IMG/VR virus record: IMGVR_UViG_3300023192_003309
Coordinates: 1-45,102 of that record
Origin: a virus
Length of the DNA: 45,102 nucleotides
Strand: one strand, 5' to 3'
Part shown: piece after piece, positions 4,500 through 42,447 of the stretch
Layout of the letters: each line of letters begins with the position of its first letter
Position numbering within the stretch: the first letter of the stretch is position 1
Made by a program: the position numbers and the translations under genes
The notes under the pieces: generated by a model
Seen by the model: only the letters and a program-made list of their open reading frames with translations
Database searches by the model: none
What the model was told of the DNA's origin: nothing

Positions 4500-4842
4500 G
4501 TGCCTTCACGCTACACCATTTCCAGCCTTGACCTTGACCGCCAGATTAAATCCCATCTGGAACAGGCCGAAAGAGAAGTACGTGCGGCTATGGGGGTAGC
4601 CCGCCAAGGCAGACGAGTGGTCGGGGGGGCCTCTTGCACGGCGCACAGAACGTGATTTAGGGGTTTTAGTGAGAGCCATAGAGAGTGTTCGGAGTCTTTC
4701 CAAGGCTGATGCCCAAACCGATCCTGATCTGATTCCCGAGGATGTGCGAGCCCAGGAATGGCGGGAAACGCGGGAGGTAACCAGACAAGCTCGCCTCACT
4801 GCCATTCAGGGATCTGAAAGTCCCGCCAGAGGTGACGGATGA
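4500..4842 (+). CDS. Small helical charged protein, reading frame broken at a G7 run
   Basis: Starting at GTG 4500 the frame reads about 51 codons, then meets TGA at 4653-4655. A second frame is open from 4600 to TGA 4840-4842, and its protein (LARRTERDLGVLVRAIESV, later EWRETREVTRQARL) has the same helical, Arg/Glu-rich character as the first part. The two join naturally if the run of seven G at 4623-4629 is read as six, giving one 113-residue protein. The second frame ends in an ATGA overlap with the portal gene, as expected for a coupled upstream cistron. The break could be a homopolymer sequencing error, a true mutation, or programmed +1 frameshifting. Function unknown; possibly a portal-associated or scaffold-like helical protein. 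Confidence 0.55.
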
Positions 4843-6557
4843 CAACAAAAGATGATGAAGTCGGGACGCCCGTAGGAAAAGTCCCATCAGGGAACGGCAA
4901 GGAAAAGGGAGCCCAAACCAGTAAGCCTCGGCGGGTAGTTACCGCTGCGATGCGTGCCAAGTTTGGTTCCTTTACAACTGGTTTAGGGCACGCGGGCACC
5001 ATGGAAGGGGTCGGCGGCAACTTTTACAGCCCTGAACTCAGCACTGATTTTCTGGAGCTTCCTCAGTCGCTCCATGAGCAGTGGAATTACTACCGTTTTT
5101 TCTATCGGTCGGAACCCTTTGTAGGACAAGCCATCGATCTCCATACGGAATTACCTTTATCCAAAATCCGTATCGGTATTCCTGAGGCTCAAAACCGAGA
5201 TATTGCGGAAGCCGCTACTCGTTTCTGTACCCGGTGGGCAGACAAGGTTGGTCTTCTTCAGCGCCTGATTGCCATCGTTCACGAATACCACCTCATCGGA
5301 GAAGTCTTTATCTGGTGCGAGGATAGCTCCGCTGAAATGCCCCGCGAGATTCGGGAAGAACTGAGACGCACCTTGTTGGAAGATGGCGACGTAGAAGAAG
5401 AATGGGTGGATCGCGAAGACGCTGATGAGAAGGCTGTGGAATGGTTGGCTAAGAACTATGCAGGATGGACTTCCCTCCGCGTGCTGCCTCCCGAACAGGT
5501 CAAGATGGAGTCCTTCAACTTCACAGACGAACGCATCTTTGAATTGATCCCTGATTCCAAAACTAAAGAGATTGTGGAGAAAGCCCAGGCAGGTGATCCT
5601 CAGGCCAAACGGATAGTGGAATCGATGCCTCCCGAAGTCGTCAAAGCCATTGTGGGTGGGGAGAACATCCCCCTCAACACCGATCCAGATGCCGGATCGT
5701 TCATCTACTATTTGGCGAACCGCAAATCGGACTACGACACGCGAGGGCGTTCTGTTCTAGAGCGGTGTATGCGTGTTCTCGTTTACCGAGACAAGTTGCG
5801 TCAAGCCCAGACCAGTATTGCTTCGCGCCACATGACTCCTATTCGCATTGTTTCTGGCGAAGACTTGGATATTTCTGATGTAGATGCGTTGCGCGAACAG
5901 GTAGACATGGCTCTCCAAGACCCGGACTACTCGATTATCGCCAACTTCCCGGTTGAGTGGAACGAGATGGGGGCTGACCAACGCCTTCTTGATCTGGGCA
6001 CAGAATACGACCTTACTGATCGACAGCTTTATTCAGGATTGGGCGTTACCGAAGGGCTCCTTTCGGGAGAATCTTCTTATTCGGGTGATCGCATCAATCT
6101 GGAAGTGATCAACACCCGATACATGCTGCTCAGAGAGCAACTTCAGGACTTGGTTCAAAAGAATTTTTTTCGTCCTATGTGTGCCCGCATGGGTTTTGTA
6201 GAAACAGATCCAGACGGGGAAGAGAGAGTTATCGTTCCTTCTCTTACTTTCACTCGCTTGGCTCTGCGGGATAACCGCGACACATTCGACCACCTCTACA
6301 ACCTTTACACCAAGGGCAGTTTGGACGTAGACACGATTCTGGAACTCTTGAATCTCGACCCGGTTGCGGTACGCGAGAAGATTAAGCGTGATCTATTCAC
6401 TGTAAATGACCCCACTTTCAATGAAGTGATGCGAGGGATTTACGGCGATGCTGGCCGAGCTATCGCGGAGAATTCCGATGTGGCTGAAAAGATCGCGGAC
6501 AACTTGGGCCTCAAGTTTGAAAAGCCCAAGGAGGAGAAGGGGGGCGGTCGCTTCTGA
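4839..6557 (+). CDS. Portal protein
   Basis: 572 residues. The portal forms the dodecameric ring at the head vertex through which TerL pumps DNA. The call rests on the order of segments: an N-terminal disordered region, then EQWNYYRFFYRSEPFVGQAIDLH, a stretch typical of myovirus portals. It continues with LHTELPLSKIRIGIP and a long helical wing, then LGVTEGLLSGESSYS. A further stretch, INTRYMLLREQLQDLVQKNF, resembles the portal stem/crown helices. Position after TerL and length (usually 450-600) agree. The start ATG overlaps the upstream frame's TGA (ATGA). The C-terminus is Lys/Glu-rich and ends in a glycine run. Confidence 0.88.
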   Translation: MTTKDDEVGTPVGKVPSGNGKEKGAQTSKPRRVVTAAMRAKFGSFTTGLGHAGTMEGVGGNFYSPELSTDFLELPQSLHEQWNYYRFFYRSEPFVGQAIDLHTELPLSKIRIGIPEAQNRDIAEAATRFCTRWADKVGLLQRLIAIVHEYHLIGEVFIWCEDSSAEMPREIREELRRTLLEDGDVEEEWVDREDADEKAVEWLAKNYAGWTSLRVLPPEQVKMESFNFTDERIFELIPDSKTKEIVEKAQAGDPQAKRIVESMPPEVVKAIVGGENIPLNTDPDAGSFIYYLANRKSDYDTRGRSVLERCMRVLVYRDKLRQAQTSIASRHMTPIRIVSGEDLDISDVDALREQVDMALQDPDYSIIANFPVEWNEMGADQRLLDLGTEYDLTDRQLYSGLGVTEGLLSGESSYSGDRINLEVINTRYMLLREQLQDLVQKNFFRPMCARMGFVETDPDGEERVIVPSLTFTRLALRDNRDTFDHLYNLYTKGSLDVDTILELLNLDPVAVREKIKRDLFTVNDPTFNEVMRGIYGDAGRAIAENSDVAEKIADNLGLKFEKPKEEKGGGRF

Positions 6558-6589
6558 TCTTATAGGAGTGGGGAAGCGAGGAAAGTGGC

Positions 6590-7372
6590 ATGGCAAATAA
6601 ACGTAAAGCGGTCTACACGGGCATCATCTTAGACAACCCCAACGATCTTCTTCGATGGTGGAAGAACACTATCGGAGATGTTCACTCTAAGAAATACGCC
6701 CACCACATGACAATCAAATTCAAGCCTTCCCCCTCCGAAGTTTTGGCTCTCCCTATCGGGGCTCCAGTCACTCTTCAGATTGTTGGGTGGGCCGGTGATG
6801 AAAAAGGCCAAGTTGTAGAGGTAAAAGCGAGTGGGGGGATCAAAAGTGGAAACACTACCCCCCATGTCACCGTCGCCACAGATGGGACTTCTCCGGTTTA
6901 CAGCAACGATCTTTTAGCCCGAGGAATAAAGCGTGTTGCTGGCCCGACCCTCAAAGGACGTGTGGGCTTATTTACGGGTAAAGAAGATCAATTCGATTTA
7001 GATGACACCATCTATGAAGAACCTTCCAAAGCCGCTGCGGTGCGTTCAGTGATGGAGCGTAAAGGTGCCTTTGGAAAAACTGTGGCACTCGTAGTGGGGG
7101 CTCACGGGGGAGACGCAGAGCTTCAACAATCAGCCTTAGACCTTGTGAATATGGAATTACGAGAAGAAATACGCAAGAAGTTCGGGCGCATTTCTTATCG
7201 GAGTGGGGCTCGCCCTCAAGGTGGCAACACCATGCTTCGTATAGTTATCAAGGGTGAGGAAGAGGTCTTGGAAGCTGTGCGTGAGTTTACCAAAGACCAA
7301 TTAGGGATGCGGTGGGGGGGAGTTACCCTTTCGTTCACCCTTTTCGATAATGGTCGGAAAGTAAGGATCTGA
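6590..7372 (+). CDS. 2H phosphoesterase-like protein (RNA repair or cyclic-nucleotide cleavage)
   Basis: 260 residues; ATG preceded by GAGGAAAG. Residues 1-~100 carry the two HxT signatures of the 2H phosphoesterase superfamily: His39-Met-Thr41 in the strand HHMTIKF and His92-Val-Thr94 in PHVTVAT. They are about 50 residues apart and each follows a strand pattern (YTGIILD opens the domain). Known 2H enzymes cleave 2',3'-cyclic phosphates, 2'-5' oligoadenylates or, in the phage anti-CBASS protein Acb1, cyclic nucleotide signals. The domain also recalls RNA-repair-associated 2H proteins. The C-terminal ~110 residues, with a VALVVGAHGGDAELQ strand and a later VLEAVREF helix, were not recognised. 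It lies between the portal gene and a leftward accessory block. Substrate unknown. Confidence 0.65.
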   Translation: MANKRKAVYTGIILDNPNDLLRWWKNTIGDVHSKKYAHHMTIKFKPSPSEVLALPIGAPVTLQIVGWAGDEKGQVVEVKASGGIKSGNTTPHVTVATDGTSPVYSNDLLARGIKRVAGPTLKGRVGLFTGKEDQFDLDDTIYEEPSKAAAVRSVMERKGAFGKTVALVVGAHGGDAELQQSALDLVNMELREEIRKKFGRISYRSGARPQGGNTMLRIVIKGEEEVLEAVREFTKDQLGMRWGGVTLSFTLFDNGRKVRI

Positions 7373-7547
7373 CTTCCGCGTGTGCGCGGGTAGCGGTTTT
7401 ATAGCACCCAATCCATACCCCCATCCGATCCCAAAGATGATGACCATCTAGGAAATACGCTCCCCACGGGTGGTGGATTTCATAGGCACCCACCACCACA
7501 AGTGGCGTGGGGAAAAGAAAAGGGATGTCCCTAGACGCGGCTTCCAT
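7335..7547 (-). CDS. Small hypothetical protein, Trp/His-rich
   Basis: 70 residues. The start ATG at 7547 is preceded by AGGAG five bases away, and the start overlaps the 3' end of the upstream 613-residue gene by 17 bases, suggesting translational coupling. The sequence has a strand-rich opening (PLVVVGAYEIHHPWGAYFLDG) and a helical end (ATRAHAEVRSLLSDHYRKG). Its 3' end overlaps the convergent 2H-phosphoesterase-like gene by 38 bases. Family not recognised. The start site and plausible composition support a real gene, though the convergent overlap leaves some doubt. Confidence 0.5.
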   Translation of the reverse strand: MEAASRDIPFLFPTPLVVVGAYEIHHPWGAYFLDGHHLWDRMGVWIGCYKTATRAHAEVRSLLSDHYRKG

Positions 7548-9372
7548 TCCTGCTCCTGAAATATCGTTTGAGTTGAGATTGTACCGCTGCATAGCGAGCT
7601 ACAAACTTTGCCAACTCAGATTTAGATACCCCTGGAACCGCATATGGAAACTTCTTAATAAATTCTTCAGGAAAGTTGGTGCTCATCCAACGAGTAGCTT
7701 TTTCTGAAGAGCGCAGATCGTCAGCCACCCACCATAAAGGATCGCGTCTACTTTCCTTGTTGTCTTGGGCTTCTAAAGCCCCTTCCAGCTTTTCAACACC
7801 TCTCGCGTGAGACGTTGCGTAATCCTTCACCTTCTTTTCCCACGCCCCGTATTCTTTTTCAGATTCAACTGAAGTGGAAAGTATCTTTTCCCGCTCTGTG
7901 TTCAGCTTTTCTAAGATATTCAAACCCTCTTGAATAGCGGGGGAGAATCGATCAACCTGGAGGGTTCCCTTGAAACGCGGGTACTGCCTTTTTCTCCAAT
8001 TGATATTGTCGCCCGTTTCTTCTAATTCTTTGACCATCAAGGCATACTGGCGAGGTACTGAATAGCGCCAATCAGAGTGGCTTATACCACCGCCTTCTAA
8101 TTCTGCGAGGCGATGAAGTACATCACGCAAATCCGTATCTGGGATGAACTGTGCAAGCTGGGCAGCCTTGGGAGTGCTGTACTTGGCGTTTAGGAACCCC
8201 CCATACCAACTTTTTACGCTGGGAGGGAAGTGATCCATGAACAAGCCATTGGAATGCTGAAGGTTATTGATCCGGTCAATTAGCTTCAACACCGTACCGG
8301 GATTGGAAGCACCAACAAGGTCTACAAACCGCTCCAACACTTCCAGCCAAGGCTCGCGCCCATGCCGGTTGGTGTAGCGGTAGCGGAGTTCTTCTACTGC
8401 ATCTCGTGCATTTTCTACTTTGCGGTTGAATTTGACTTTGGGAGCCCCAGAGCCAGTAGCGGAGAAATCAATGCTGTATGATTTCTGCTTATTGGCCGCA
8501 TAATCACTGAAAACCTTGGTAAACCGTTGGATGTTGGCAGGGAGCCATGCCCCATAGAACCAATCCTCCAGATCCCGATCTGATACGCCACGGCCTTCGG
8601 ACACTTCTTCCGGTTTCTTGAGCCGCTGACCCCCGGCCCCAAATACTCGATCAAATGCCCGATGCACCTCTGCGGGGAGATCGCGTAACCCTACTTGATG
8701 CGGGGGGAGAAACCACTGAAAGGCTTTGGAATCCCACCAGAACCCTAATTCCCGAAGACGTGTTTTGTATTTCTTGGTGCGTCTTTCCGAAGGGACTTCC
8801 CATCTACGCTCATCACCGTTCCAATGGAGTCGGAGTGGGAAATCTCGTGCAGTACGAGCGGCATAGCGCCCTTGGCGCAACACCCCCGCTTTGAGCGCGT
8901 CATCCCTCAAGACCTTGTAGATCTTATTGGCTACCGGCTGCATTTTTGCCGGAATCAAATACTCATTGTCCGGTACATGGTGGTCAATGGCAGGCGGGCT
9001 ACCATCCAGTAATGCGTCAGGAAGAGCCGCCACAAAATCAGATAAGCCGTTTTGTAGTTTTTTGAGGCCAGGGCCACCGCCCCCTACGCGGGCACGATTC
9101 AAGAGGGCATGTTCAAACCAACCCACCAAGCGTTTACGATAAGAGAGAAGCAGGGCTTTCCTCAGCTTGTTGACATCAGGATCACGGATAGCCGACATCA
9201 CATAAGTCCCGTAAGCCACGGACTCGTCATCCATCGAATCAACTTGGGAGGCCAAGAAGTTTGCCATTTTGCGAACTTCATCGAGGTCCATGGTATCCAC
9301 ATAGGGAAGCGCACCTTCTCGATAAAGGTACGCATGAACAATTCGATGCGGGCTCGGGTAGGGAAATTGCAT
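7531..9372 (-). CDS. Large hypothetical protein with DUF5710-like segment
   Basis: 613 residues from the ATG at 9372, chosen because the longer frame would overlap the upstream phosphatase-like gene and the residue run beginning MQFPYPSPHRIVHAYLY looks like a true N-terminus. Residues ~45-110 are acidic and helical. Near residues 190-230, RELGFWWDSKAFQWFLP follows LRLHWNGDERRWEVP. This recalls the short 'alpha-helix then GxxWDxxxxxWYL' motif of DUF5710-type segments found in mobile-element proteins. The C-terminal half is helical and charged. The last ~35 residues include KFVARYAAVQSQLKRYF, an Arg/aromatic stretch similar to tails of two other proteins here. Function unknown; second gene of a leftward operon behind the phosphatase-like gene. 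Confidence 0.7.
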   Translation of the reverse strand: MQFPYPSPHRIVHAYLYREGALPYVDTMDLDEVRKMANFLASQVDSMDDESVAYGTYVMSAIRDPDVNKLRKALLLSYRKRLVGWFEHALLNRARVGGGGPGLKKLQNGLSDFVAALPDALLDGSPPAIDHHVPDNEYLIPAKMQPVANKIYKVLRDDALKAGVLRQGRYAARTARDFPLRLHWNGDERRWEVPSERRTKKYKTRLRELGFWWDSKAFQWFLPPHQVGLRDLPAEVHRAFDRVFGAGGQRLKKPEEVSEGRGVSDRDLEDWFYGAWLPANIQRFTKVFSDYAANKQKSYSIDFSATGSGAPKVKFNRKVENARDAVEELRYRYTNRHGREPWLEVLERFVDLVGASNPGTVLKLIDRINNLQHSNGLFMDHFPPSVKSWYGGFLNAKYSTPKAAQLAQFIPDTDLRDVLHRLAELEGGGISHSDWRYSVPRQYALMVKELEETGDNINWRKRQYPRFKGTLQVDRFSPAIQEGLNILEKLNTEREKILSTSVESEKEYGAWEKKVKDYATSHARGVEKLEGALEAQDNKESRRDPLWWVADDLRSSEKATRWMSTNFPEEFIKKFPYAVPGVSKSELAKFVARYAAVQSQLKRYFRSRNGSRV

Positions 9373-9413
9373 AGCAAACCTGTTGGGCTTGCTCTCCCTA
9401 TTCCATAAAAGAC

Positions 9414-9833
9414 CTACCGACCAAAGAGAGGCATCTGTTGACGGGAATCCCACCAGCGTCGGAGTCCTGCCACGCTGTGAGAATTCATCCGGCGACCTGC
9501 GAGGCACACTGCTTTCAAAGCGTCCTCCACTGATGCTGCCTCCCCCCTATCCAAGAGGATGGCCGCAGCCACACATGCGGATCGGGATTTCCCGGCCCGA
9601 CAATGCACAAGGACTTCCCCCTTCATGGATTTGGCATCTTTGGTGATTCGTTCAAGGTCTTCTGAGGTCCACGCATGGGCAGACCGCCCTGTGGGGATCA
9701 CCGCATAGGCCCCTTGCGGGCCTTCTCCACCAAGGCAATCGATCACCTCATCGAACAACTCAGCCCACGCATGAGCTTCATCCTTGCTCCCCACCCACAG
9801 GTGTGGTCCCACTTCGCGCAACGTGTCGGTCAT
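9414..9833 (-). CDS. Dual-specificity/tyrosine phosphatase-like protein
   Basis: 139 residues from ATG 9833, preceded by GGAGGG four bases upstream; the frame is open further upstream but lacks a ribosome site there. The active-site loop HCRAGKSRSA at residues 77-86 is the classical HC(X5)R(S/T) signature, with Cys78 as nucleophile and Arg84 as phosphate-binding residue. The N-terminal VGPHLWVGSKDEA matches the opening strand of dual-specificity phosphatases, and the size fits the minimal domain. It may dephosphorylate host proteins or nucleotide substrates during infection. It is the first gene of a leftward operon whose upstream region holds a TATAAT box and a strong hairpin. Confidence 0.8.
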   Translation of the reverse strand: MTDTLREVGPHLWVGSKDEAHAWAELFDEVIDCLGGEGPQGAYAVIPTGRSAHAWTSEDLERITKDAKSMKGEVLVHCRAGKSRSACVAAAILLDRGEAASVEDALKAVCLAGRRMNSHSVAGLRRWWDSRQQMPLFGR

Positions 9834-9936
9834 GTGCCCTCCACCCTCATACGGCACAGGGGGGTTGGAGGCACCCCCCAGCGGGTAGGATATGAGTAAG
9901 TCTCTTGTGAGAGCATCCGTGGATAAGAGCCCCCTA

Positions 9937-9942
9937 ATTATA
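9937..9942 (-). promoter_or_regulatory. Candidate -10 box (TATAAT) for the phosphatase operon
   Basis: On the leftward strand the sequence reads CACTCTATAATTAGG, an exact sigma-70 -10 hexamer about 100 bases before the phosphatase-like start. No good -35 hexamer stands 16-18 bases upstream (TAAACT is the best), so it could need an activator or be a weak promoter. It is the only perfect TATAAT noticed in this divergent intergenic region. Confidence 0.4.
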
Positions 9943-9982
9943 GAGTGTGGGGACACCCAAGTTTATTTCTGACCCCTTAAAA

Positions 9983-10028
9983 CCCCCCTACCCCCTAAAC
10001 TTGAAACCGAAGTTTAGGGGGTGGGGGG
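9983..10028. repeat. Strong G/C-rich inverted repeat between divergent operons
   Basis: The left arm (9983-10002: six C, TA, five C, TAAACTT) pairs with the right arm (10010-10028: AAGTTTA, five G, T, six G) through 19 base pairs with one bulged T, around a 7-base loop GAAACCG. It lies between leftward transcription (from ~9937) and the rightward gene starting at 10072. No T-run follows on the rightward strand and the left flank is only weakly T-rich, so a simple terminator is not obvious. The G-rich arm (GGGGG T GGGGGG) could also form a quadruplex. Confidence 0.8.
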
Positions 10029-10071
10029 TATAGTATGTGGGCGTACGGGTATTTTAATCCGTGGAGAATAG

Positions 10072-10614
10072 GTGACTCGGAAACTCAAACCAATCGAAAT
10101 TATCGTAGAGGAAGGAATCGCCCAAGATATCCTTTCCTTGCCGGTGGTAGACGAGAATGGGGTGATTTCCACGGTAGGTCAGAACATCCAAAAAGCGTCT
10201 ACACTATTAGCGGACACCAATAAGGTTCTTGCTGAAAACGCATTGGTAAACATTGTAGCCAAGACTATGATGCAGCAGATGAAACGCCGAGGTCACGCGG
10301 GTATCCGGGTACGTCCTGACGGGACTGTGGTGCTGAGGGTGGCTTACCATGCAGAGGATGTGGAGCCGGAAATCTTTAGCTCCCCCCTCACTAAGTCTAA
10401 ACTCCCTTCTTTGGCGCAATTGCGAAAAGAAGCTACCGAGAAAGAAATAGATATTTCGGATTTGGGGCGTCAAAAAAACCTTATCATTAAGCGTCTTGAG
10501 GAAACCCCCCCGATAATAGACAGGCTGGTTGTGGTGCCCCCTTCTCGTCTGCGCGATGAGATCGGTGAAGCTGACGACCCCACGGGAAAAACAAGGTTAC
10601 CCCCTCGTCGTTAG
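10072..10614 (+). CDS. Probable DNA-binding protein with SAP/HeH-like C-terminal region
   Basis: 180 residues, starting at GTG with GGAGAATAG immediately upstream. It is the first gene rightward of the divergent hairpin region. The N-terminal half is helical (QNIQKASTLLADTNKVLAE). The middle holds the strand pair GIRVRPDGTVVLRVAYH. Residues ~118-145 (LAQLRKEATEKEIDIS followed by DLGRQKNLIIKRLEE) resemble the helix-extended loop-helix of SAP/HeH domains, which bind nucleic acid. The C-terminus is Arg/Pro rich. As the promoter-proximal gene it could be regulatory, but this is inference. Confidence 0.5.
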   Translation: MTRKLKPIEIIVEEGIAQDILSLPVVDENGVISTVGQNIQKASTLLADTNKVLAENALVNIVAKTMMQQMKRRGHAGIRVRPDGTVVLRVAYHAEDVEPEIFSSPLTKSKLPSLAQLRKEATEKEIDISDLGRQKNLIIKRLEETPPIIDRLVVVPPSRLRDEIGEADDPTGKTRLPPRR

Positions 10615-13000: not shown

Positions 13001-13026
13001 TAAAACAACCCCGTTTTTTTACGGGG
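13001..13026 (-). terminator. Leftward intrinsic terminator after the FmdB-like gene
   Basis: On the leftward strand the sequence reads CCCCGT, seven A, CGGGG, then TTGTTTTA: a short hairpin followed by a U-rich tract. It lies about 70 bases downstream of the leftward zinc ribbon gene. On the rightward strand no T-run follows the hairpin, so it acts leftward only. Confidence 0.6.
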
Positions 13027-13093
13027 CTTCTGAATAGGGAAAGAGCCTTTCTACTAACTATCCCTATACGCATGTCAAGGGTAGTTTTGGGCT

Positions 13094-13279
13094 TTATCCC
13101 GCGTATCCGTCAGAGGCCCAACCGCCGCCTTTAAGACTGAAACTGGTTTGGGAAATTTGCTTTTTACACACTTTGGCTTTGCACTTCGGGCAGTCTGCTT
13201 CTCGCTCTAAATCCGCGTGCCGACGCAGTTCTTCAAAACGGTGGCCACACTTGGAACACTTGTACTCATAGAGCGGCAC
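13094..13279 (-). CDS. FmdB-family zinc ribbon protein
   Basis: 61 residues from a GTG at 13279 with GGAGGGTGGT upstream; this start yields the family's usual opening (PLYEYKC). Four cysteines form two CxxC knuckles at residues 8/11 (CSKC) and 30/33 (CPKC), a single zinc site. The C-terminal SLKGGGWASDGYAG is the tail typical of FmdB-like regulatory proteins. This solitary leftward gene has its own terminator at 13001-13026 and lies among rightward genes, so it is an independent transcription unit resembling a moron. Its role in phage is not known; a small nucleic-acid or host-transcription effector is plausible. Confidence 0.82.
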   Translation of the reverse strand: MPLYEYKCSKCGHRFEELRRHADLEREADCPKCKAKVCKKQISQTSFSLKGGGWASDGYAG

Positions 13280-13338
13280 ACCACCCTCCTTTGGACTCCC
13301 CACTATACCGATAAACTCTTTATGCAATCTAAAGGGGT

Positions 13339-15534
13339 ATGAAGACTATCTCCCCTCTCCCTTCTCGCGTGGCCAAGAAGTGGAAGAAACTCCCGAAAGG
13401 CTGGACGGACAAGTCTGTGGAGAAATTTTGGGGAACGCTGACCGGCACGACCCCGGAGCACAAGGTCTGGGATTGCATCGACAAGATGACGAAACCCTTT
13501 GGCGACGGTGCGGGGGCTTTCTGTGGTGGGCTGGCCGACTGGCAGATGCCAGGATGGAGACAGAAGAACAAGAAAGAATCTCCCGAGGCCAGATCCGATG
13601 CCAAATCTTATTGGAAGGGCAAAATGAAGGGAAAGAAGAAGTCCTGCGCTGACCATGGAGCCTCCTCCCGAATGGCAAGCGCATCTGGACCTGTCACCAA
13701 ATTCCTCACACGCCTTCGCGGGAAGGGCAAAGGGACTTTAAACATCAACGTGCTGGAAGAAGCCCTACCGCTACTGGGGTGGTCGATCCGAAAGACAACG
13801 GCGGCCTTCCGGGTGCCCGACAATGAGAACATTGAGCCCCTTCTTGTCGCGATGCTGAAGCCCGATGGGATGTGGGGCTACCGAGGGACCAAAGAACCCC
13901 AGTACATATCCTTCAAATCCCCAGAGAGAGCAGAACGCGCCTACAGGATCTTCACGACCAAGGCAACAAAGGGCAAGCCTCCCCCCCATCCCAAGGTGGA
14001 CGAGATTTACTACCTTGAAGCCATTTACCCAGCGGAGAGAGGGTGGGGGTCTTTCGGGGGAGAGCAGTCCATTGTCGTCACTGGATGGTGGGTCGGTGTA
14101 GAAGCATACGAGGTCACCAACTCGTCGGGTGCGTCTGTTCTCCTTCCTCTCTCTCCCGATGACCGAGGACGATACCAAGATCCAATCAAGTGGAAGATGG
14201 CGAAGTTCTGGACCTGGGCCTACAAAAATGGCATCCAAGATGACGCAGCCGCATACCTCGACAGCATGGGGGCCGAAGAAGTGGCTCGGGCCACAGCCCC
14301 CGCCAGCGCACGGTCCTTGGACGGCACTGGGACGTGTCCCGCGTGCTTCAATAATGTGAAGCTGCGGCGTGGGGAGCGCATCATGCGGCATGGCTGGCAG
14401 GTACAGGGTCAACGCCAATGGGGTTCCTACGGGAACACATGGCACACTGGCCCTTGTTTCGGCACCGGCTATCTTGCTTTTGAGGTGAGCCCTGAAGGGA
14501 CGAAGGACTATCGTGACCAAGCTGTGATCCCCTACAAGAAGGGGGTGGAAAGAGAACTCGCCCGCGTGAAGCGGGGTACTGACCCCATCACAGTTGATAA
14601 AGGTCGTCGTTGGGAAAAGACACTCCAACCCGGCGACTCCGAATATGCCCGGTATCAAGACATCTCTATCAAGCAGGGAACCAAAGCTATCTCTGATCTT
14701 GAACAAGATATTCGGACCCTTGACTCTCGGATCACGGGCTGGAAGACAGCGACCCTCCCTGGAGCACGGAGGGCGAGTTCTGTTCGGGTGGCTTCACTCC
14801 ACGCTGCCTATGGTGGCAGCCCACTCATGCTTCAACCCGACTACGGCACCTCTGATGCAGAGGAGAATGAGCACCTGCTCCAACCTGACCACGATATTTC
14901 GGATGCGGCCCTTCCTCGGGGGAAAGAAGCCAAAGCCCTGACTACGGTGTGGGTGGTAGAAGATCCGACCGAGGACTCAGAGATTATCGATATGCTCTGG
15001 GGCACTTCAGATATGCAGACATTCAAGCGAGTGATGGCTGGGGGTATCCATATCAAGCGCAACTTTACTCTCCATGATGAGAAAAACAGCGCCTATAAGG
15101 ACGCTGTGTATCGCCTCAATAAGTTGTGGAAAGGTCAGATTCCTGACTGGGTTATGGCGAATGAGCGGGACGCATTTCGTAAGATGAGTCGCCAAATGAT
15201 GCGGTGGGATCAGGCCAAATCCCGGTTCCACCAAGAGTTTGAGGATGAAGCTGCCGCAGTACGGGAACGGGCCAAGAAAGATCTTCTTCGCCCCACCGCT
15301 GCTCTCTTTAAAGAGTGGATTCAGAATGGGGGGTACAAATTACCTCCTACTGAAACCCCAGAAAAACTCGCCAAAGGGTTCCTCTTGTACCTTTTCAAAG
15401 GGGGCAAAATATACAACCCGTGGCTTTTTGATAACTTCTTCAATATCTACAAACAGAACATGAAGGCTTGGGGTGTGCCAGTACGCACCGCTCACTACAT
15501 CTTGAATGGCTTGCGAGATGAACGGGTAGGGTAA
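13339..15534 (+). CDS. 731-residue multidomain protein with Cys/His metal-binding motif
   Basis: Starts at ATG 13339. No named family recognised. Residues ~1-75 contain VWDCIDKM followed by DGAGAFCGGLADWQMPGW, a short 'CxxxM...AFCxxL...W' element often seen in small phage proteins. The middle (~105-320) is mostly beta/alpha. Residues 333-373 carry CPAC (C333, C336), His351 (MRHGW), His369 and Cys373 (HTGPCFG), a probable CCHC zinc site followed by YLAFEVSPEG. The C-terminal third is helical and acidic (EDEAAAVRERAKKDLL). An Arg/Ala/His tag (SSVRVASLHAAYGG) sits near residue ~480. Codon usage drifts: the first two-thirds are more G/C-rich at third positions than the last third. It lacks a convincing ribosome site but is the only long frame over this region. 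Confidence 0.72.
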   Translation: MKTISPLPSRVAKKWKKLPKGWTDKSVEKFWGTLTGTTPEHKVWDCIDKMTKPFGDGAGAFCGGLADWQMPGWRQKNKKESPEARSDAKSYWKGKMKGKKKSCADHGASSRMASASGPVTKFLTRLRGKGKGTLNINVLEEALPLLGWSIRKTTAAFRVPDNENIEPLLVAMLKPDGMWGYRGTKEPQYISFKSPERAERAYRIFTTKATKGKPPPHPKVDEIYYLEAIYPAERGWGSFGGEQSIVVTGWWVGVEAYEVTNSSGASVLLPLSPDDRGRYQDPIKWKMAKFWTWAYKNGIQDDAAAYLDSMGAEEVARATAPASARSLDGTGTCPACFNNVKLRRGERIMRHGWQVQGQRQWGSYGNTWHTGPCFGTGYLAFEVSPEGTKDYRDQAVIPYKKGVERELARVKRGTDPITVDKGRRWEKTLQPGDSEYARYQDISIKQGTKAISDLEQDIRTLDSRITGWKTATLPGARRASSVRVASLHAAYGGSPLMLQPDYGTSDAEENEHLLQPDHDISDAALPRGKEAKALTTVWVVEDPTEDSEIIDMLWGTSDMQTFKRVMAGGIHIKRNFTLHDEKNSAYKDAVYRLNKLWKGQIPDWVMANERDAFRKMSRQMMRWDQAKSRFHQEFEDEAAAVRERAKKDLLRPTAALFKEWIQNGGYKLPPTETPEKLAKGFLLYLFKGGKIYNPWLFDNFFNIYKQNMKAWGVPVRTAHYILNGLRDERVG

Positions 15535-15563
15535 ATAAACCCCCCTCAAATGTGGAGAAAACT

Positions 15564-15737
15564 TTGTTTGATGTTCGCGTGCAGAAACAAGCGGTAGAGG
15601 CGTGGGTTCAAAAACAAGTTGAGTTACCGAGCCGGAAAGAAACCCGGCAGAAATTTCCAAAAGTTCCCCAAAGAATTATTCGTACCGTCTTGCAGTCATT
15701 ACGAGACAAAGGCTCCAACGGTGCGGCTCCCGACTAG
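15564..15737 (+). CDS. Small possible helix-turn-helix protein
   Basis: 57 residues if started at the TTG 15564 (six bases after GGAG); a GTG twelve bases upstream at 15552 would add four residues but overlap the ribosome site. The region PSRKETRQKFPKVPQRIIRT reads like two helices separated by a turn, followed by VLQSLRDKG, as in a winged helix-turn-helix. It is strongly basic. Possible small transcription factor; evidence is composition and helical pattern only. Confidence 0.45.
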   Translation: MFDVRVQKQAVEAWVQKQVELPSRKETRQKFPKVPQRIIRTVLQSLRDKGSNGAAPD

Positions 15738-15882
15738 AGAAACCCCCATCCGACAGGATTGGTGGGGAGTAGCTAAAGTTGTCATTGGAATTGTGCTTGT
15801 GATTGGGCTTACGCTAATTCCCTACTGCATGGATTCCTTAGAAGATAGTCCTGCCTCTCCCGAAAAGGAGGGGGGTCAATAA
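15721..15882 (+). CDS. Small single-span membrane protein
   Basis: 53 residues from GTG 15721, overlapping the end of the preceding frame by 17 bases. After a short basic/polar N-terminus, one hydrophobic segment spans residues ~15-37 (VAKVVIGIVLVIGLTLIPYC). A Ser/Glu/Pro-rich tail ending in EKEGGQ follows. The longer frame from 15619 lacks a ribosome site and overlaps the upstream gene. Single-span phage proteins can be spanin or superinfection components, but nothing here identifies this one. Confidence 0.5.
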   Translation: MRLPTRETPIRQDWWGVAKVVIGIVLVIGLTLIPYCMDSLEDSPASPEKEGGQ

Positions 15883-15903
15883 ATTTTATTTCCAGTAAAG
15901 ACG

Positions 15904-16119
15904 GTGATCCCGCACGATGCTGAGATGGTCATGCAGATTTTATTGGAAATGGAAGAAGTAGAAAGTTTGGTTCGGGAAGCGATGGGTAATCGTGGGACGC
16001 AAGTCCCTGATAAGGCTCTTATGCGGATTCGCCAGAACCATAAGAAAGGGACAATCCGGTTGGTTTTTACCACTCCTGAAAAAAATGGGGTTCCCGACCC
16101 CCCCTCTTCCCGTAAGTAA
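15904..16119 (+). CDS. Small helical acidic-to-basic protein
   Basis: 71 residues from GTG 15904 (weak AAAGACG upstream). The first 30 residues form an acidic helix (MVMQILLEMEEVESLVREAM) and the rest is basic (NRGTQVPDKALMRIRQ). Its frame ends 25 bases before the next gene's ATG (16145). No family recognised. The protein-like helix pattern and operon position favour a real gene, but the weak start lowers confidence. Confidence 0.45.
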   Translation: MIPHDAEMVMQILLEMEEVESLVREAMGNRGTQVPDKALMRIRQNHKKGTIRLVFTTPEKNGVPDPPSSRK

Positions 16120-16144
16120 GCCAACCAAGCAAAAAGGTGGTGCC

Positions 16145-16702
16145 ATGATAGTGCTGAATCCCTTTGTGAAAAGGCAAACCGCTGATAGCCGGTTTTCCCA
16201 CTTCACAGGAACCGACGATGAACTCGTCAGCCTTACTGAAGCGGCCTTCGCAGAAGGTACGCAAGGCTACCGTGAAGGAGTGCTGGAGATTCCTGTGAAG
16301 ATTCTTCCCGGCACCTTCTATTCCGGCGTGGTGCGCTTGGAGGCAGGGGATGCTTTGGCGGGTTCCTACGAAGCCCGTAAGGAAGGGGAAACCCCTCGCA
16401 AGACAGTCATGGCTCAAGGACGACAAAAGCTGGAGGCTGTGAGTGTCAACGTCATCGTGTATGCCTCTACCGTCTTGGCTGAGAGTGAGGAAAACACTCT
16501 CCCTGCGGAGGAAGGCAACTACGAAATCGTCAGCATCAACGCCAACCCGTTCGATGAAGATATGCCCATTGATCCCCACACCCTCATGCACAACCACTTC
16601 GGGAGCGATGGTGGAACGGCTACCGGGTTGGAGGATTCAGAATTTGTAGCGATGCTGCGTCAGTCTTTTGAGGCATGGCGAGACAAAGCCATGTGCGGAT
16701 AA
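16145..16702 (+). CDS. DUF3228 family protein
   Basis: 185 residues from ATG 16145, with AAGGTGG upstream; the longer open frame upstream is not protein-like and lacks a ribosome site. It matches the DUF3228 pattern recalled for this family. EGTQGYREGVLEIPVKILP leads into GTFYSGVVRLEAGDAL, then YEARKEGETPRKT. Later come the strand VSVNVIVYASTVLAE, the conserved YEIVSINANP, and near the end HNHFGSDGGTATG and EAWRDKAM. DUF3228 proteins occur in bacteria, plants and phages without a known function; conserved Glu, Asn and His residues suggest a binding or enzymatic site. Next to small accessory genes. Confidence 0.8.
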   Translation: MIVLNPFVKRQTADSRFSHFTGTDDELVSLTEAAFAEGTQGYREGVLEIPVKILPGTFYSGVVRLEAGDALAGSYEARKEGETPRKTVMAQGRQKLEAVSVNVIVYASTVLAESEENTLPAEEGNYEIVSINANPFDEDMPIDPHTLMHNHFGSDGGTATGLEDSEFVAMLRQSFEAWRDKAMCG

Positions 16703-16718
16703 CCACAGGAGGTCTAAA

Positions 16719-16970
16719 ATGGCTGTTCTTGGCCCGAATGGGCGTTTTGCAGATGGCACCTCTCCCTATGAGGGAGAGACTGACGAGGAAATCCGTGAAT
16801 CCATGAAGCAGGGCCGCTTCAAGGGTGGTGCGAAAGCCGTTCGCATTAGCGGGGGCTTCTTCACCGGCTCCAAGAAGGGGGATGACAATCTTCGCGACTT
16901 CTTGGGGAGCATCGGTGCATTGGGGGGTTTGGCCAAGGAAGAATACGAGGCCAACAAGAAGGGCGAGTGA
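16719..16970 (+). CDS. Small glycine-rich hypothetical protein
   Basis: 83 residues; the start is ATG 16719 with AGGAGG seven bases upstream, 16 bases after the previous stop. It contains several Gly/Lys and acidic patches (GETDEEIRESMKQGRFKGGA), then a helical C-terminus (LRDFLGSIGALGGLAKEEYE). No family recognised. Strong start and close spacing support it as an operon member behind DUF3228. After it, 16971-17124 holds no gene I can support; only a minimal five-codon frame (17107-17124) abuts the next start. Confidence 0.65.
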   Translation: MAVLGPNGRFADGTSPYEGETDEEIRESMKQGRFKGGAKAVRISGGFFTGSKKGDDNLRDFLGSIGALGGLAKEEYEANKKGE

Positions 16971-17124
16971 AAGAAGACCAAGTAAAGGGAACGAACGGGT
17001 GCAATTGGAGTGCCGACGTAAACAGGCGGTATCTCAATTCCCTATCCCTCGGCCCTCACGGGAGAAAAGGCAGTAGTTCCCCCCACTCAGCATCGAGCAG
17101 GGAGGCATGTCGGTGGTCGCATAG

Positions 17125-18057
17125 ATGCCTCACCCCTATGGGAAACCCATGAGCAATTTCTTTGTGGTTCAATATGCCTGTGTAGATGCTTCTTACGAGG
17201 TGTCACCTGACATGGTGTATGCCTCTCCCCAAGAGTTCATGGAAGCCCATGACGTGATCTTAGTGGAGGGAGAACACCGTACTTGGACCCGTGAATCAGG
17301 AGAAGTGGTCTTGGAGCCGCGCCCTATTATGGCGGTGCCCAGATTGAATCAAAAGAGTTTGCGGCATTACGTGATGGGGATCGTGGATTGTCATATTGTC
17401 ACGTCTGCTCAAATGGACCCCTCCCAAGTATCTCTCTCGTTTATGCCCGTCATGTTCGGGGCGTTGCACCCTTCTGCTGAAATACGTGTGGAAATGATGG
17501 GGTCCGAGTCCCCTCCTGAACCCCCCCAACCCCCTGAAGAACCGAAAGCCCCTGCTTATCCTTCATGTCGGGAAAAGCCTTCCCTTCCTTCTTTGGTGGC
17601 CTCTGACAGAGACATGCGCTTGAAATGGGAGTGGGACGATATCGAGGAAGAAGAGTGGAAAGCACACTTGAAGGACATTGAGGATCAGAATGAAAAGCTG
17701 CGGGACGAGTACGACAAAGCCCTAGAAAAATGGGAAGCCCACGAAGTAGGCATCGCTACCATGCGCCAAGAATATGCCGATGTTGTGGCAGCGTGGGAAA
17801 CTACCGTAAAGGATTGGGAAACACAGGATGTTCAAGTTGCTGCTGCCGAGTGGGTAGAACGACATGATCGTATTTTCTCTCTGTGGGGGAGAGATATGGG
17901 CACTCTTGCGGGGGATGTTCGGGAAGGAACCTTCCCTCGTTGTATAAACGGACACCCTTTGTTTTATGCGTGCAACATCATCCACCCGAAGGATTGGGAG
18001 CGTATTCGGGGGGCCGTCGATAAAGAAGGCGCTCGACGCAAAGAAGCGGTTGTCTGA
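17125..18057 (+). CDS. Coiled-coil hypothetical protein
   Basis: 310 residues from ATG 17125 (an in-frame ATG at 17149 is an alternative; neither has a strong ribosome site). ATG 17125 directly follows the stop of a five-codon frame (TAG-ATG) downstream of GGGAGG, so re-initiation is possible. The N-terminal ~125 residues look globular and beta-rich (YVMGIVDCHIVTSAQM). A proline-rich hinge (PPEPPQPPEEPKAP) follows. Residues ~165-250 form a long acidic/Trp-rich coiled coil (EEWKAHLKDIEDQNEKLR). A short C-terminal domain contains CINGHPLFYACNIIHP, with two Cys and two His. Function unknown; ends exactly beside the convergent HU gene. Confidence 0.65.
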   Translation: MPHPYGKPMSNFFVVQYACVDASYEVSPDMVYASPQEFMEAHDVILVEGEHRTWTRESGEVVLEPRPIMAVPRLNQKSLRHYVMGIVDCHIVTSAQMDPSQVSLSFMPVMFGALHPSAEIRVEMMGSESPPEPPQPPEEPKAPAYPSCREKPSLPSLVASDRDMRLKWEWDDIEEEEWKAHLKDIEDQNEKLRDEYDKALEKWEAHEVGIATMRQEYADVVAAWETTVKDWETQDVQVAAAEWVERHDRIFSLWGRDMGTLAGDVREGTFPRCINGHPLFYACNIIHPKDWERIRGAVDKEGARRKEAVV

Positions 18058-18336: not shown

Positions 18337-18399
18337 GATTACACCGTAAAAGGCAGTGAGGGATGCACCCTCCTTTCAGAATAGAAAAGCTATGGAAGG

Positions 18400-18472
18400 C
18401 TGGGGCGGGTGGAGTCGAACCACCAACCTTCGGGGTAACAACCCGATGCGCTGCCAATTGCGCTACACCCCA
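18400..18472 (-). tRNA. tRNA-Asn (GTT anticodon)
   Basis: On the leftward strand a 73-base cloverleaf folds cleanly. The acceptor stem is TGGGGTG/CGCCCCA with one G-T pair. The D arm is GCGC-loop-GCGC. The anticodon stem TCGGG/CCCGA has loop TTGTTAC, anticodon GTT at positions 34-36. The T arm is GGTGG/CCACC with loop TTCGACT, and the discriminator is G. The 3' CCA is not encoded (GCC then TTCC), so it must be added by host enzymes. Its only neighbours on this strand are the HU gene downstream and nothing upstream. Confidence 0.95.
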
Positions 18473-30356: not shown

Positions 30357-33300
30357 CTATGAACCTAATGACTTTTGTTGCTCGATAAGTTCAAGCTGCT
30401 TCCGCAAATTGCGTGGAAGTCTTCTCTTTGCTCTGCGTGCCACTACGATAGACCCGTCTTGTCGATCAGCCCGGAAAGCGATCCATGAGTAGCGAAGCTC
30501 ACGCAGCTTATCGTTGTTGTCCAAAATGTCATTTATGTACCCAATCAGCACAGGACGTTGCCCAAAGGTTCCGGTGCTGAAAGCGGTGTAGGCAAACGTA
30601 GCTGGAGCCGGGGGGATTTCGCTATCCAAAGTGAAATCCAGAATCCAGAATCGTCGGCCTAAAACACTCAGGCAGTCATCGGTGTTGGCATAAGGACTAT
30701 ATTCTTTCAAGCCCCGGAAACTCGTCAAGACACGGTTGGTCAAAAGCCCAAGACCAGAAGAAGGCAGCAAACTATTCCCCAGATCATCAATCTGGTCCTC
30801 CTGCTGGAAGATGTAGTAGCTTCCTGATTTATCGTAAATACCATCAATCTCTTCCATCCACGAAAGCAACCGCTCCCGCATAAAGAGAATGGTGTCCGTC
30901 GCTTCGGGGCTAAAGAGCGTGGAGGGACGGATGATTTTGTATCCGAAAGGCTGAACACTCCGGTACAAATTCAGCGCAGGACTATCCGTTGTTCGCTCGC
31001 GGTAGACCAATGTGCCGCTTCCATCATCCACAGGAGGAGCCGTAGGACGGAGCCCTTGCTGACCTTCTCTGCTATCCGTTGCTGAGGTCAGTAAAGAACC
31101 ATGCACGGTGGGCAGTACAACGTATTCCGAGTTGAAAGGTGTTCCCCCACTTACCCCTTCCATGCCGAACACTATGTCGTCAGACCCATCTTGGGCATTC
31201 CCAGCGAAAATACAGGCTCCCGAGAGAGGGAGAATAACGGGGTAGTCCTCATCCAATTCCCCTACCTTGTAAAAGCCTCGGTTATCGTCTGTAATGGCTT
31301 GCGGATAGACGATGTGTTCTGGTGTCCGACCATCGACTGATTGATCTCCGATGGGGCGTGTTCCCATTTCAATTTTCTTGTCGTAAAGAGGCCCTGCGGG
31401 ATCTACGATGAGGTAATCGTTGGCCTGTACTCCAACCGCCTCCCAACTATCGTAAGTACCGGTGGGGCTGATATCGGGATCTTGAAGCCCGTGTGGGGTG
31501 GCATCTACCGGGTAGCCGTCCACAAATCCACCGTCTACTGGTGTCACAGCAGCCTCAGGATAGGTAACAGAACGGCTATACACCACTTCTTCTGTCAGAA
31601 GATCCAGCAGTTGTTCATTGGATTGTTCATGGGGAACAAAGGGCTGCCTCAAGTAAACCTCAAAAGAGGTCGCCGTTGCTAAATCAGCGGTAAGGCCGGG
31701 ACGGTGAAGAATGAGGGTGGTGGTTCCATCCACCTTCTGAATCTCAGCCTCGTCCATCAAGGTGCCATTCGTATCAAACACCCTGAGGGTGTCACCGGGG
31801 TTGATGTTTACTTCCTCTACATCAAAGGCTCCCAGATTAGTAGCGGCCCCGTAAGTCGCTATTCCTGCGGTAAAAGTACGAGTGGCAACGGCATAACTAT
31901 CGAAATCACCGCGCCGAATCTTATAGAGATACCGTAGTTTTTCCAAGTATCCAGTGACGGTTGCTTGGGCATCATGGAAGCGTCGAATCCGACGAACATA
32001 GAAGGAAACAGGTTCCCAAGTATCCGTGTAGGTGCTGAAATCGCTTGCTGACCGAGTACCCAAAACGTCAGTATAAGTACCCGTTAGCGGATGGCTGGCC
32101 GTAACCACATGAGGCTGAGGAGCACCAAGCATCCTGATATCTGTGGTCGGTTTCGGGAAGGAGGGCTCCATGAACACCCCTGCCAGCAACACCAAACCGT
32201 CAACAGTGGGGAGAGCGGTAGGACCGAGACTATCAGCGGCTTTCCATATATCGCCAGGGAGAAGACACTGTAATCTATTGGTCGGTGGCGGGTAGGCTGG
32301 GACTGTAGGATCATATGTAAAATGAATATAGTCCCACTGTTGGTCAGCAAAACCACCAACACTGACCAAAAGGGGCACCCCGGAGTGGACACTATTAGTA
32401 GGGGTCAGATTGCGTGTGTTAAATCTCCCATAAAGAACCCTTTTCTTCTCCTCCACAAAGGCTTGGCTCGTCTGAGGGTCACGGAACTTAATATCGAAGG
32501 CTCGGGCAGGACTGATGTTGAACGTGCTGCCCGATCTAATCGGTTGAGGATCGGTAATGGGTGGAAGTGTGGCTGCGGGAGGGCTAAAAGTCAACATCGG
32601 CTCGGGTCGAGCCAGCGAGGCACTGTCTCTAAGCAAGCGGTTACCGATGGTCATGTACGCAAAACCGAAAGTGGCGTCGTCCCCTGCGCTCGTAAGGTCG
32701 AGACCCACAACATTGTTGGAAGGGAAACCCGCGTAATCGGTAACCTCGTCTTGGAGCGCCCCAACCATAAAACGAATCATTCCAGAAATAGTGGTGCCCG
32801 AGATAATTTTAGGAGCAAAGTCCTCCAGTGCCACATCCACATCCTCAGCGTCTTTAGCCGGAGCGGATACATCAAGCACCATTGTGGCAGTCGTCTCTCC
32901 TATCACTTGCGTGTAAGAAGTGAAGTCAATGGAATAAACAGAGGTGGGAACTACGGTATAGCGATCTGCCGGTACAACTATGGTTGAGTCGTAAGTGGCG
33001 TATTGAGCATCAAAGATAAAGTAAACCCTCCCAGTCCCCGCAAAGGGTCGGAAAATATTTTGGGATAGGGGGAGGGGGAAAACATCCGGGTCATCAAGCT
33101 TTAGCGCCTTGGGAACATTCTTTAGATTGAGGGTCATGGCCGTGACGTTGCCAGACCCGTCATAAGTGACATCCAACGACCCTACTTCTGGGAACCTCAG
33201 ATCAAAGAGCCCCTTATTACCAGCAGAAACTTCTGCCTCCCCATCGTCTACTCCAGATTCATATGCGGAATAGACTTCACCACTGGACCCGGCAAACGTG

Positions 33301-36300
33301 GTGGTGGATGGAATTGCATGACGTACCAAGTAGGTGCCAGTCTTAGTAGCTCCGTAGGTTTCTTCCCGAATGAGGTTTTCATCAGCCCCTTCGACCACCA
33401 CAATGTCGCCACTCTCAATGCGGGCTAAATTTCCATTGAAAGTAGTCAGATTGGTGATCCACGGCTTGATCCCCAAGGGAGTTACCGTATAGTCGGAATC
33501 ATAGAAGTCCCCTCGGGCCGTGTAGATGTCATAGGCCGCTGCATCCCGTAAGTTAGATGACGGAGCGGATGAGAAAATAAGCCCTGAAGCTCCTCCTGTA
33601 AGGGGTGCGTTATCATTCCCTTCCCAAGACATCGCTCGGACGGTGCCTACCTCATCCCCTGCGCCGGGAGCAGTAGCGGGAGTAAAAGTACCTACATACT
33701 CGTTTCCTCCAGACCACCGTTCCAAGAAAGTGAGGTATGTACCCCCATTCATTGAGGTCGCAGAATTTATGGTGCTGAGATACGACGGAGGGCCAGCGAT
33801 GTATCCCATAGGGGATACGGCGACATTCAACTGCATTCCCAAATCATCGCCCCCAACACCATCACCGGGATGCGTAGAGCGGGGTAAGGCCCACTCCATC
33901 GCTACTGCTTCACTGAAAGTCAGCCTATCTCGACCAATAAAAGCTGTTGCGCTGCCGTCCCCCGAAGGAGAGACAATAGCCCCCCCAGTAGCGGCGGCAG
34001 TATCAGCGTCAATGTAGGTATCCAGAGAGATGGTGTAGTCGTAGTGTGCTGTTGGATCGAGCCCTAACTGGAGCAGCACGGAGCTTGTGGTATTGATAAC
34101 CACAGTCCCCGTCGTTGCTGTGTCAATAACTGCCAAGACCTGTGTGGGAACCCCCGTGTTCCAATACGGCATCGGAATGACGCCGCCACCAACATCCACA
34201 TAAAGATTAGTGAGGGGAGAGGCGCTTGCCCTCGTAATCACCACTCTCCCCAACCAAGCGGCTGCTCCCGATATATTCGGGTCCGGGTCATAGATATTGA
34301 TGATGACAGCATTGTTGTTAGAGGCAACAGAGAACCCTGCCACCCCTAAGATTTCTGCGACACCCCCCTCATCAAAAGTGGTCCCGTTCCCGTCATTAAG
34401 GGTGATGCCGGTAAAGGAAAACGTGGTCTGGAAACCGGCAACAGGAACAGTAAGAGTGGTCTCCGTTACCTGTACTCCAGTATTCAACGGTCCTTTATGC
34501 CCATACAGGTTGTTCACCGTGTACCAATGGAGATGACCTCTATGAGTAGGGCTGATAAAGCGTGGGATCTCAATGGTAGATTGGGCGGTTCCGGTGCCGG
34601 TGTGTCCCGCTGTATCACCTACGGTTTGAATCCCTGTGCCTCCCACAAAGGGCATGTCGGACTGATCGGCAGCTTGCACAAACAGCAGATCCCCGCGACG
34701 TAAATCCCCCTCCCCGCTTTCAGCGGTGTAGGTTCCCGCCGTTTCCACAGGACGCACATCTTGTGCGGTGTATAGAGTTGCCGGATTCTGATCTACGGTC
34801 GTGGCAGTAAACTCGGTGATATTGCCATCGGTCCCTAAAATCTCATCAGGGTAAACAGACAAAAAGTCGTAGCTCGGATCGATGACCTGTAGCTCTATGG
34901 CGGGAACCTGTAAGAAATCAGGAATATTGTGAGTCGGTAAAGGCGCGTCGGCTAACACGCTAAAAGCTGAGGCACCCACGTTCTTGAGAACCACCAATTC
35001 ACTATCGGCTGATCGCAGATAAGGGATGGTTATCTCCCCAGAATCATCTGCTGCCTCACCCTTCAAACACGGTAATTGAAGGGGTGCCTCATCAGTATTG
35101 ATAAACTCCGCTACCCCTTCAATTGCAGAAAGAGGGGAAGGAGGGTTCTGGCCCAACCATGACTGAAGGGGGAGTGGAAAATCATCTTTGTCATCGGGAA
35201 GAGACAGATCAATGATGGCCCCGCTCTTATTACGAGCCTTTACATCGAAACCCATTCGATAGTCAGGGATGCTGCCGCTGAATTGCCCGGATTGCTCCAT
35301 GGTAGGGCTATCCCCAGAACCCGGAATATCTCCTTCTGTGGGAAACGCTACGGGAGGAACGACATAGATAGTATCCCCTTGGACCGGCTCCCATTCCCCT
35401 GCGCTACCCGTCAAAGAAGTGGAAATCCGTGAAGCAGAGGTGATGCCAGCGTTATCAGATGCCCGTTTCAGCGTAATAACGAAACCGTCGATAATCTCAT
35501 CCACCAACACAAACGTATTGTCGGCTGTCTCGTACAGGGAAAAGGTCTGGCCGTTGGGGGTGCCAAAAGCAACGCGATCACCCGAAACGAACCCTGGCGT
35601 AGACTGGTCTGCATCCCCGCTCACAAGATCAGCAAAGGCCCCTCCACCGCTAATCAGAAGGGGGGCATCCGGTACGCCAGTCGTGGGATCAATAGGAAAT
35701 TCGGAAAACGGTAAGGGCGTGGCAACAAGAGTAGGGCCTGAGGTGGAGGAACTCCCTCCCGAATACCCCTTAGGGTGGTACTCCCAAATACGAGCCCTTG
35801 CTAAACGAGGCTGGATGGAGACATCAGTAAGCCGTGTCAATTCCTCCAAAGCCGGATTGGAAAGCTGCCCGATAGGACGCCCTATCGTCCGTGCCGTTGT
35901 GGTTTGCGTCTCCCCAGGGTTCGGGCCTGGAACTTCTTGCTTACGGCCAAAGGAGTAGTAGCCGGGGTTGCTGAAACCACCAGAAACGGGATCAACTACT
36001 GACTCCAAGCCTGGGAAAAGACGCGAAAAGTGTTTGGTGCGTTCGGGATAGAGGCGAGAAAAATCATGGTTTTCCCACATTTCCTCATAGCGACCCCTGG
36101 TCGAAGGAATAGGGAAAAGACCCAACAACATCTTAGGTCTTTTCAACCCGGTCAGAAGAATGTCGTCCATGTCATTTTTGACTCGGTACTTCTGACGATT
36201 GATAAAGAAATCGAGAAACACCGGGTTAGCCGCTTCGCCGTCTACTGATTGCGGTTCTTCTCCCGTGGGGTCCACCACCAAAGTCAACGGATTCACCACA

Positions 36301-41849: not shown

Positions 41850-41859
41850 TATATCTCTC

Positions 41860-42447
41860 TCAAATGATGTAAGAGGTGCTAACACCTGTACCCGGAGCAG
41901 GCCCTACTGGACCCGCCACAGCCCCAACTCCTGCACCTGTCATCACTAAAAGAGAAATACCGTTACCCAAGCCAATCGCTAGTTTCTGGGCATTGAGCCC
42001 GACCATCTGGCTTGCCGCCATAGACGCCGACAACATGGGAATCAACAAAGCGGCGTTGGCAAACGTAACTTTGCTCACATCTGCACCGAAACCCACTCCC
42101 ACTGATGTCCCTAAATAGATTCCTCCCACATTCAGTGCAGTGGGAACACCTATACCCACTGCTATTCCTATTTTTATAGCGGAAGGCCCCACTAAACCCG
42201 CTGCACTCAATGCCCCAATCACAAGCCCAGGATTAGGAAAAACACCCACTTTCCCTACCACGGACCCTACCCCAACCACCCCAATCGAAGATCCAGTCAT
42301 AATGGTGGCCCCATAAGTGGCGGCAAGCCACCCGCTCACCCCATTTCCAACGGCCCCAGCCAACTTAAAAAAAGAAGGGCCAATCAATCCCACAGGAACT
42401 CCTGCGGCGATTATGGAGCCAGCTACGAGGGGAGGGGGAACCGGCAT
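41860..42447 (-). CDS. Glycine/valine-rich protein with three ~65-residue repeats
   Basis: 195 residues; its ATG overlaps the upstream hub gene's stop (TAATG). It is extremely hydrophobic and Gly/Ala/Val-rich. Three repeats are visible: GLIGPSFFKLAGAVGNGV at 20-37, GLVGPSAIKIGIAVGIGV at 84-101 and GLNAQKLAIGLGNGI at 150-164, spaced 64 and 66 residues apart. Each is flanked by glycine-rich strands. No signal peptide. It lies between the spike-like gene and the giant gene; a membrane-contacting or spike-tip accessory role is possible, but unproven. The stop is 11 bases before the giant gene's probable start. Confidence 0.65.
   Translation of the reverse strand: MPVPPPLVAGSIIAAGVPVGLIGPSFFKLAGAVGNGVSGWLAATYGATIMTGSSIGVVGVGSVVGKVGVFPNPGLVIGALSAAGLVGPSAIKIGIAVGIGVPTALNVGGIYLGTSVGVGFGADVSKVTFANAALLIPMLSASMAASQMVGLNAQKLAIGLGNGISLLVMTGAGVGAVAGPVGPAPGTGVSTSYII

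Follow-up and report, generated by a model that had tools for sequence, protein, structure and literature searches.

2H phosphoesterases are widespread in large phages, with surveys placing them in 33–35% of medium and jumbo phages (PMC9503650), and the jumbo-phage enzymes have been proposed to clear 2′,3′-cyclic ends together with ligases and KptA (PMC7824862, PMC9503650). The described systems closest to the protein studied here are the cyclic phosphodiesterase (CPD) domain of the tRNA ligase Trl1, the phage Swiss Army Knife (SAK) RNA repair-like proteins, the anti-CBASS protein Acb1, the ThpR/LigT family and the 2H domains of phage polyvalent proteins. We analysed an entire virus contig of 45,102 bases, IMG/VR virus record IMGVR_UViG_3300023192_003309 (hereafter the window), and within it a 260-residue protein encoded just downstream of the portal gene. 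Homology, conserved residues and the predicted fold confirm that it is a real 2H phosphoesterase, and the enzyme is probably active. We consider it fairly probable that the protein is a metal-independent enzyme of the tRNA-ligase-CPD-like type that heals RNA 2′,3′-cyclic-phosphate ends. The basis is computational throughout, comprising homology, the predicted 2H fold, conserved catalytic residues, selection on the relatives and the HAD_SAK fusions found among them. Since 2H enzymes are already common in large phages, the protein adds one more, and its only unusual or new part is an orphan C-terminal domain. The gene and its parts are as follows.

6590–7372, plus strand: whole 2H gene with its C-terminal extension, an open reading frame (ORF) of 260 aa with an ATG start (ORF call, family alignments)
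6590–7009, plus strand: 2H phosphoesterase domain, residues 1–140 (PF08302 match; AlphaFold confidence score, pLDDT, of 90–98 over residues 11–140)
6704–6712, plus strand: first HxT motif, His39-Met40-Thr41 (His and Thr invariant in 22 sequences; model strand 39–44)
6863–6871, plus strand: second HxT motif, His92-Val93-Thr94 (His invariant, Thr nearly so; model strand 92–97)
6899–6913, plus strand: family signature YSN-D/E-L, residues 104–108 (Y104 and L108 invariant, S105 and N106 nearly so)
7073–7363, plus strand: orphan ferredoxin-like C-terminal domain, residues 162–258 (pLDDT about 77–88; Foldseek matches to designed ferredoxin folds)

The protein contains only two HxT motifs, H39-M-T41 and H92-V-T94. 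By itself the pair is weak evidence, because such spacing is not rare by chance: among 1008 ORFs no shorter than 130 aa, 101 have two HxT/S motifs 40–70 residues apart, and shuffling the window protein yields two strict HxT motifs at such spacing in 0.8% of cases. Relatives were therefore sought. Scans with the full protein for close relatives came back empty for viral contigs, genome contigs, phages and plasmids alike; at E 0.01, the phage and plasmid records that were searched gave no match to it. The first relatives came from searching the window protein against portal-related contigs, which gave matches in three, and a subsequent alignment scan extended the family to 23 viral loci; scanned against bacterial and archaeal genomes, the alignment gave no relatives. 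In the family alignment of 22 rows, which are 28–61% identical, H39, T41, D70, H92, Y104 and L108 are invariant, and T94 (Ser in L027), S105 and N106 are nearly so. The two HxT/S motifs of the 2H superfamily are thus kept across the homologues, and it is this conservation across 22 aligned members that makes them meaningful. The relatives are under strong purifying selection, with dN/dS values of 0.02–0.20 where estimable. A preliminary description made from the DNA alone had assigned the protein to the 2H superfamily on the strength of His39-Thr41 and His92-Thr94; these residues are as stated there, and neither histidine is lost in any of the 22 rows.

Family profiles place the protein nearest to the Trl1 CPD domain. 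Its top Pfam match is PF08302 (fungal tRNA ligase phosphodiesterase; E 8.7e-5), a family with the same 2H tetrad, and the match spans the second HxT motif and the YSN-type region. PF08302 matches 16 of the 19 family members (best E 7e-8), and its curated cut-off is passed by the relatives L022, L026 and L034. Unlike Trl1, the window protein stands alone without a ligase or kinase domain, gives a partial, below-cut-off match and carries the extra C-terminal domain. ThpR/LigT (PF02834) belongs to the same superfamily, but only one of 19 members matches it, weakly (E 0.043), and a profile comparison (hhalign) with E. coli ThpR gives a probability of 7.7%, so that membership of this family was rejected. 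A match to YciH/SUI1 over residues 141–185 (E 0.028) was likewise set aside, being far below the cut-off and beginning in a disordered linker.

An AlphaFold model built with the 22-sequence alignment is confident over the 2H domain (pLDDT 90–98) and places the two motifs on strands 39–44 and 92–97, where pLDDT reaches 95–98, in agreement with the strand-like segments that the preliminary description had proposed. The strand order of this model, together with Foldseek matches to viral models, points to the duplicated beta-alpha fold of 2H enzymes. Among the viral models, an annotated Acb1 is the second-best match (E 2e-4); the search also recovers a protein of 153 aa (E 7e-4) and, with weaker scores, two entries whose names call them cyclic phosphodiesterases. 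A fold search of the PDB returned no 2H structure among its top 50 matches, which are mostly of ferredoxin type and driven by the C-terminal domain. A single-sequence AlphaFold model, with a poor 2H domain (mean pLDDT 46.7) and only ferredoxin matches in the fold search, was superseded by the 22-sequence model, and repeat-protein matches from the PDB sequence search were discarded as short chance matches to designed repeats.

In the same model, a low-confidence linker (residues 145–161) splits the 2H domain from residues 162–258, which are modelled as a separate beta-alpha-beta-beta-alpha-beta domain whose Foldseek matches are designed ferredoxin folds. No relatives of this domain were found in the viral contigs, the phage records, or the portal-related or 2H-bearing records, in keeping with the extra, unknown domain of ~110 residues that had been described beforehand. 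A guess from its fold is that the domain probably helps to bind RNA or a partner. It is quite improbable, in our estimate, that it gives the 2H enzyme a new target, for instance one specific kind of damaged RNA or an alarm nucleotide, which would make the protein an undescribed type of phage counter-defence.

The architectures of the relatives connect the family to RNA repair. L023 and L024 are HAD_SAK_1–2H fusions (PF10307, E 3e-20 and 6e-22, respectively) and in this resemble the SAK RNA repair-like proteins, from which the window protein differs in having no HAD_SAK or PTP-SAK domain, and no HAD was found in the window. HAD_SAK_1 also lies 2–6 kb from the 2H gene in four further contigs, all of one clade, and RNA ligase, KptA and 2H occur together in G027 and G038. 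As an observation in its own right, G027, a 536 kb contig, has, besides KptA and the 2H gene, two RtcB ligases and two matches to ATP-grasp RNA ligases. Elsewhere in the family, the 2H domain stands alone (L022, L027, L029, L043) or lies at the end of proteins of 474 aa (L034) and 536 aa (L030). In L026 (3747–8525) it is joined with topoisomerase IB in one multidomain protein of 1592 aa; the partner of topoisomerase IB is instead RNA ligase in L018, a related phage with no 2H gene detected, in which a giant ORF (13011–17645) carries InPase, topoisomerase IB and RNA ligase domains. The embedded 2H domain of L026 recalls the polyvalent-protein 2H domains and the 2H–portal and 2H–MuF fusions of the phage 2H superfamily (PMC5512222), from which the window gene differs in lying apart from the portal and encoding only one extra small domain.

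We favour RNA repair because of the HAD_SAK fusions, the tRNA-ligase-CPD profile matches, the co-occurrence of KptA and RNA ligase, and the lack of any Acb1 profile match. The substrate, the product, the role in infection and that of the C-terminal domain we infer as follows. Host defence ribonucleases would cut tRNA or other RNA and leave 2′,3′-cyclic phosphates, which the 2H enzyme would open during infection, giving, by analogy with the fungal enzyme, a 2′-phosphate and a 3′-OH. His39 and His92 would serve as general base and acid, Thr41 and Thr94 would bind the phosphate, and the C-terminal ferredoxin-like domain may assist RNA or partner binding; a partner phosphatase or KptA, with an RNA ligase, would then finish the repair. 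Several observations weigh against this proposal. With 22.6 bits, the match of the window protein to PF08302 falls 0.4 bits short of the cut-off of 23, and it covers only about 43 of the 250 positions of the family. No RNA ligase, KptA, RtcB or HAD_SAK_1 gene lies within the 45-kb window, which is probably a genome fragment, and a ligase is undetected in most 2H-bearing contigs. HAD_SAK_1 is present in 9 of 22 2H carriers versus 2 of 14, an excess that is not significant (p 0.14), and several of the linked contigs are near-duplicates. Moreover, it has been argued that the phage 2H domains of polyvalent proteins are not associated with RNA ligases and that they might act as RNases or degrade nucleotide signals (PMC5512222). 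The contextual links that lead us to favour RNA repair are thus statistically modest.

The enzyme could alternatively be an anti-defence nuclease resembling Acb1 or viral 2′-5′ phosphodiesterases, one that destroys the oligonucleotides, cyclic or linear, with which CBASS or type III CRISPR raises the alarm. LigT-like phosphodiesterases have repeatedly been deployed against nucleotide immunity (PMC11410667, PMC9117128), and Acb1 (T4 57B, PF23474) shares with the window protein the 2H fold, the HxT/HxT catalytic tetrad and the fold-search match noted above. However, none of 19 family members matches PF23474 even at E 1, whereas the control T4 57B does so at E 2.7e-60, and a profile comparison (hhalign) with eight Acb1 proteins reaches a probability of only 8%; membership of the Acb1 family was accordingly rejected. 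The HAD_SAK fusions, too, indicate RNA ends rather than alarm signals. Many cyclic and 2′-5′ nucleotides have become substrates of this fold (PMC9117128, PMC11410667), which leaves room for an Acb1-like activity, although we regard it as rather unlikely and favour the healing of RNA 2′,3′-cyclic-phosphate ends over an anti-CBASS function. Of the two roles that the preliminary description had offered, RNA repair therefore has more support than anti-defence by an Acb1-type enzyme. A 2H enzyme acting on the by-product of KptA is also conceivable, as this activity is known for some 2H cyclic phosphodiesterases and KptA is present in two 2H-bearing contigs; yet the window has no KptA and RNA-end phosphatase is the activity described for the HAD_SAK fusion partners, and we judge such a role very improbable.

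The position of the gene bears on one more explanation, in which the protein is a virion-packaged RNase or phosphoesterase, made late alongside the head genes and delivered into the cell together with the DNA. The genes around it are listed here.

4839–6557, plus strand: portal protein gene (phrog_16240, E 3.2e-30; viral-contig relatives 62–80% identical)
7335–7592, minus strand: small conserved ORF of 85 aa, a boundary of the slot, sharing 38 bases with the 3′ end of the 2H gene (tblastn relatives)
7531–9507, minus strand: 658-aa gene of the accessory block, no family match
9414–9956, minus strand: dual-specificity phosphatase (DSP) gene of the accessory block (PF00782, E 1.3e-9; weak PTP-SAK match)

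The 2H gene shares its strand with the portal gene and begins 33 bases past it, an interval in which no terminator-like site was found, and it is preceded by a ribosome-binding-like stretch, GAGGAAA, at about 6578–6585; the two minus-strand genes form the downstream accessory block, so that the location between portal and accessory block is as first described. Fusions of 2H domains to portal and MuF proteins have been reported (PMC5512222, PMC9503650), but here the 2H gene is separate from the portal gene. Furthermore, none of the 2H genes of portal-related phages adjoins the portal, all lying elsewhere in the genome, and the post-portal gene varies in related phages, with products of 519, 144 and 366 aa, a metallopeptidase-like gene and others in that place; in L018 it is a PolyA-polymerase-head (CCA-adding-type) nucleotidyltransferase (9705–10469), and the giant ORF follows it. 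In three related contigs (L002, L004 and L006, by tblastn), relatives of the 85-aa ORF again lie on the minus strand past the portal, so that the 2H gene seems to occupy a cargo slot there. As this slot is variable and 2H relatives lie elsewhere, the position says little about function; portal adjacency was rejected as a weak clue to a virion function, which we consider improbable. The first view that such a copy is unusual among head genes is not supported: in related phages the slot contains unrelated cargo genes, and roughly one in three medium and jumbo phages is reported to have 2H genes (PMC9503650).

The window probably represents part of the genome of a large phage, as suggested by the portal relatives (62–80% identity), which come from virus contigs as long as 297 kb, and by the portal's best phage-record match, a 485-kb uncultured phage. 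The terminase large subunit is encoded at 1054–2973. The DSP gene lies 2.8 kb from the 2H gene, and in G038 (L050) a DSP gene lies 2.6 kb from 2H, alongside a calcineurin-like phosphoesterase; this 2H–DSP association, resting on two contigs (chance 0.12 and 0.03), is suggestive only.

Taken as an enzyme that heals RNA ends, the protein yields a concrete, assayable prediction of which RNA ends large phages repair. The family adds a sequence-divergent branch of 2H proteins with relatives fused to RNA-end phosphatase domains, and its stand-alone, HAD-fused and C-terminally extended forms offer a natural set for testing each added domain.

Three further observations were made in passing. In L003 (10434–11114), a clamp-loader-like gene (PF13177) continues after its DEC motif with CFTEDTVLLT, which by eye reads like the start of an inserted intein. 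In the window itself, the minus strand encodes a 3842-aa ORF (30357–41885) whose C-terminal ~1550 aa have no Pfam match at E 0.01, and a tRNA-Asn gene (18398–18472).
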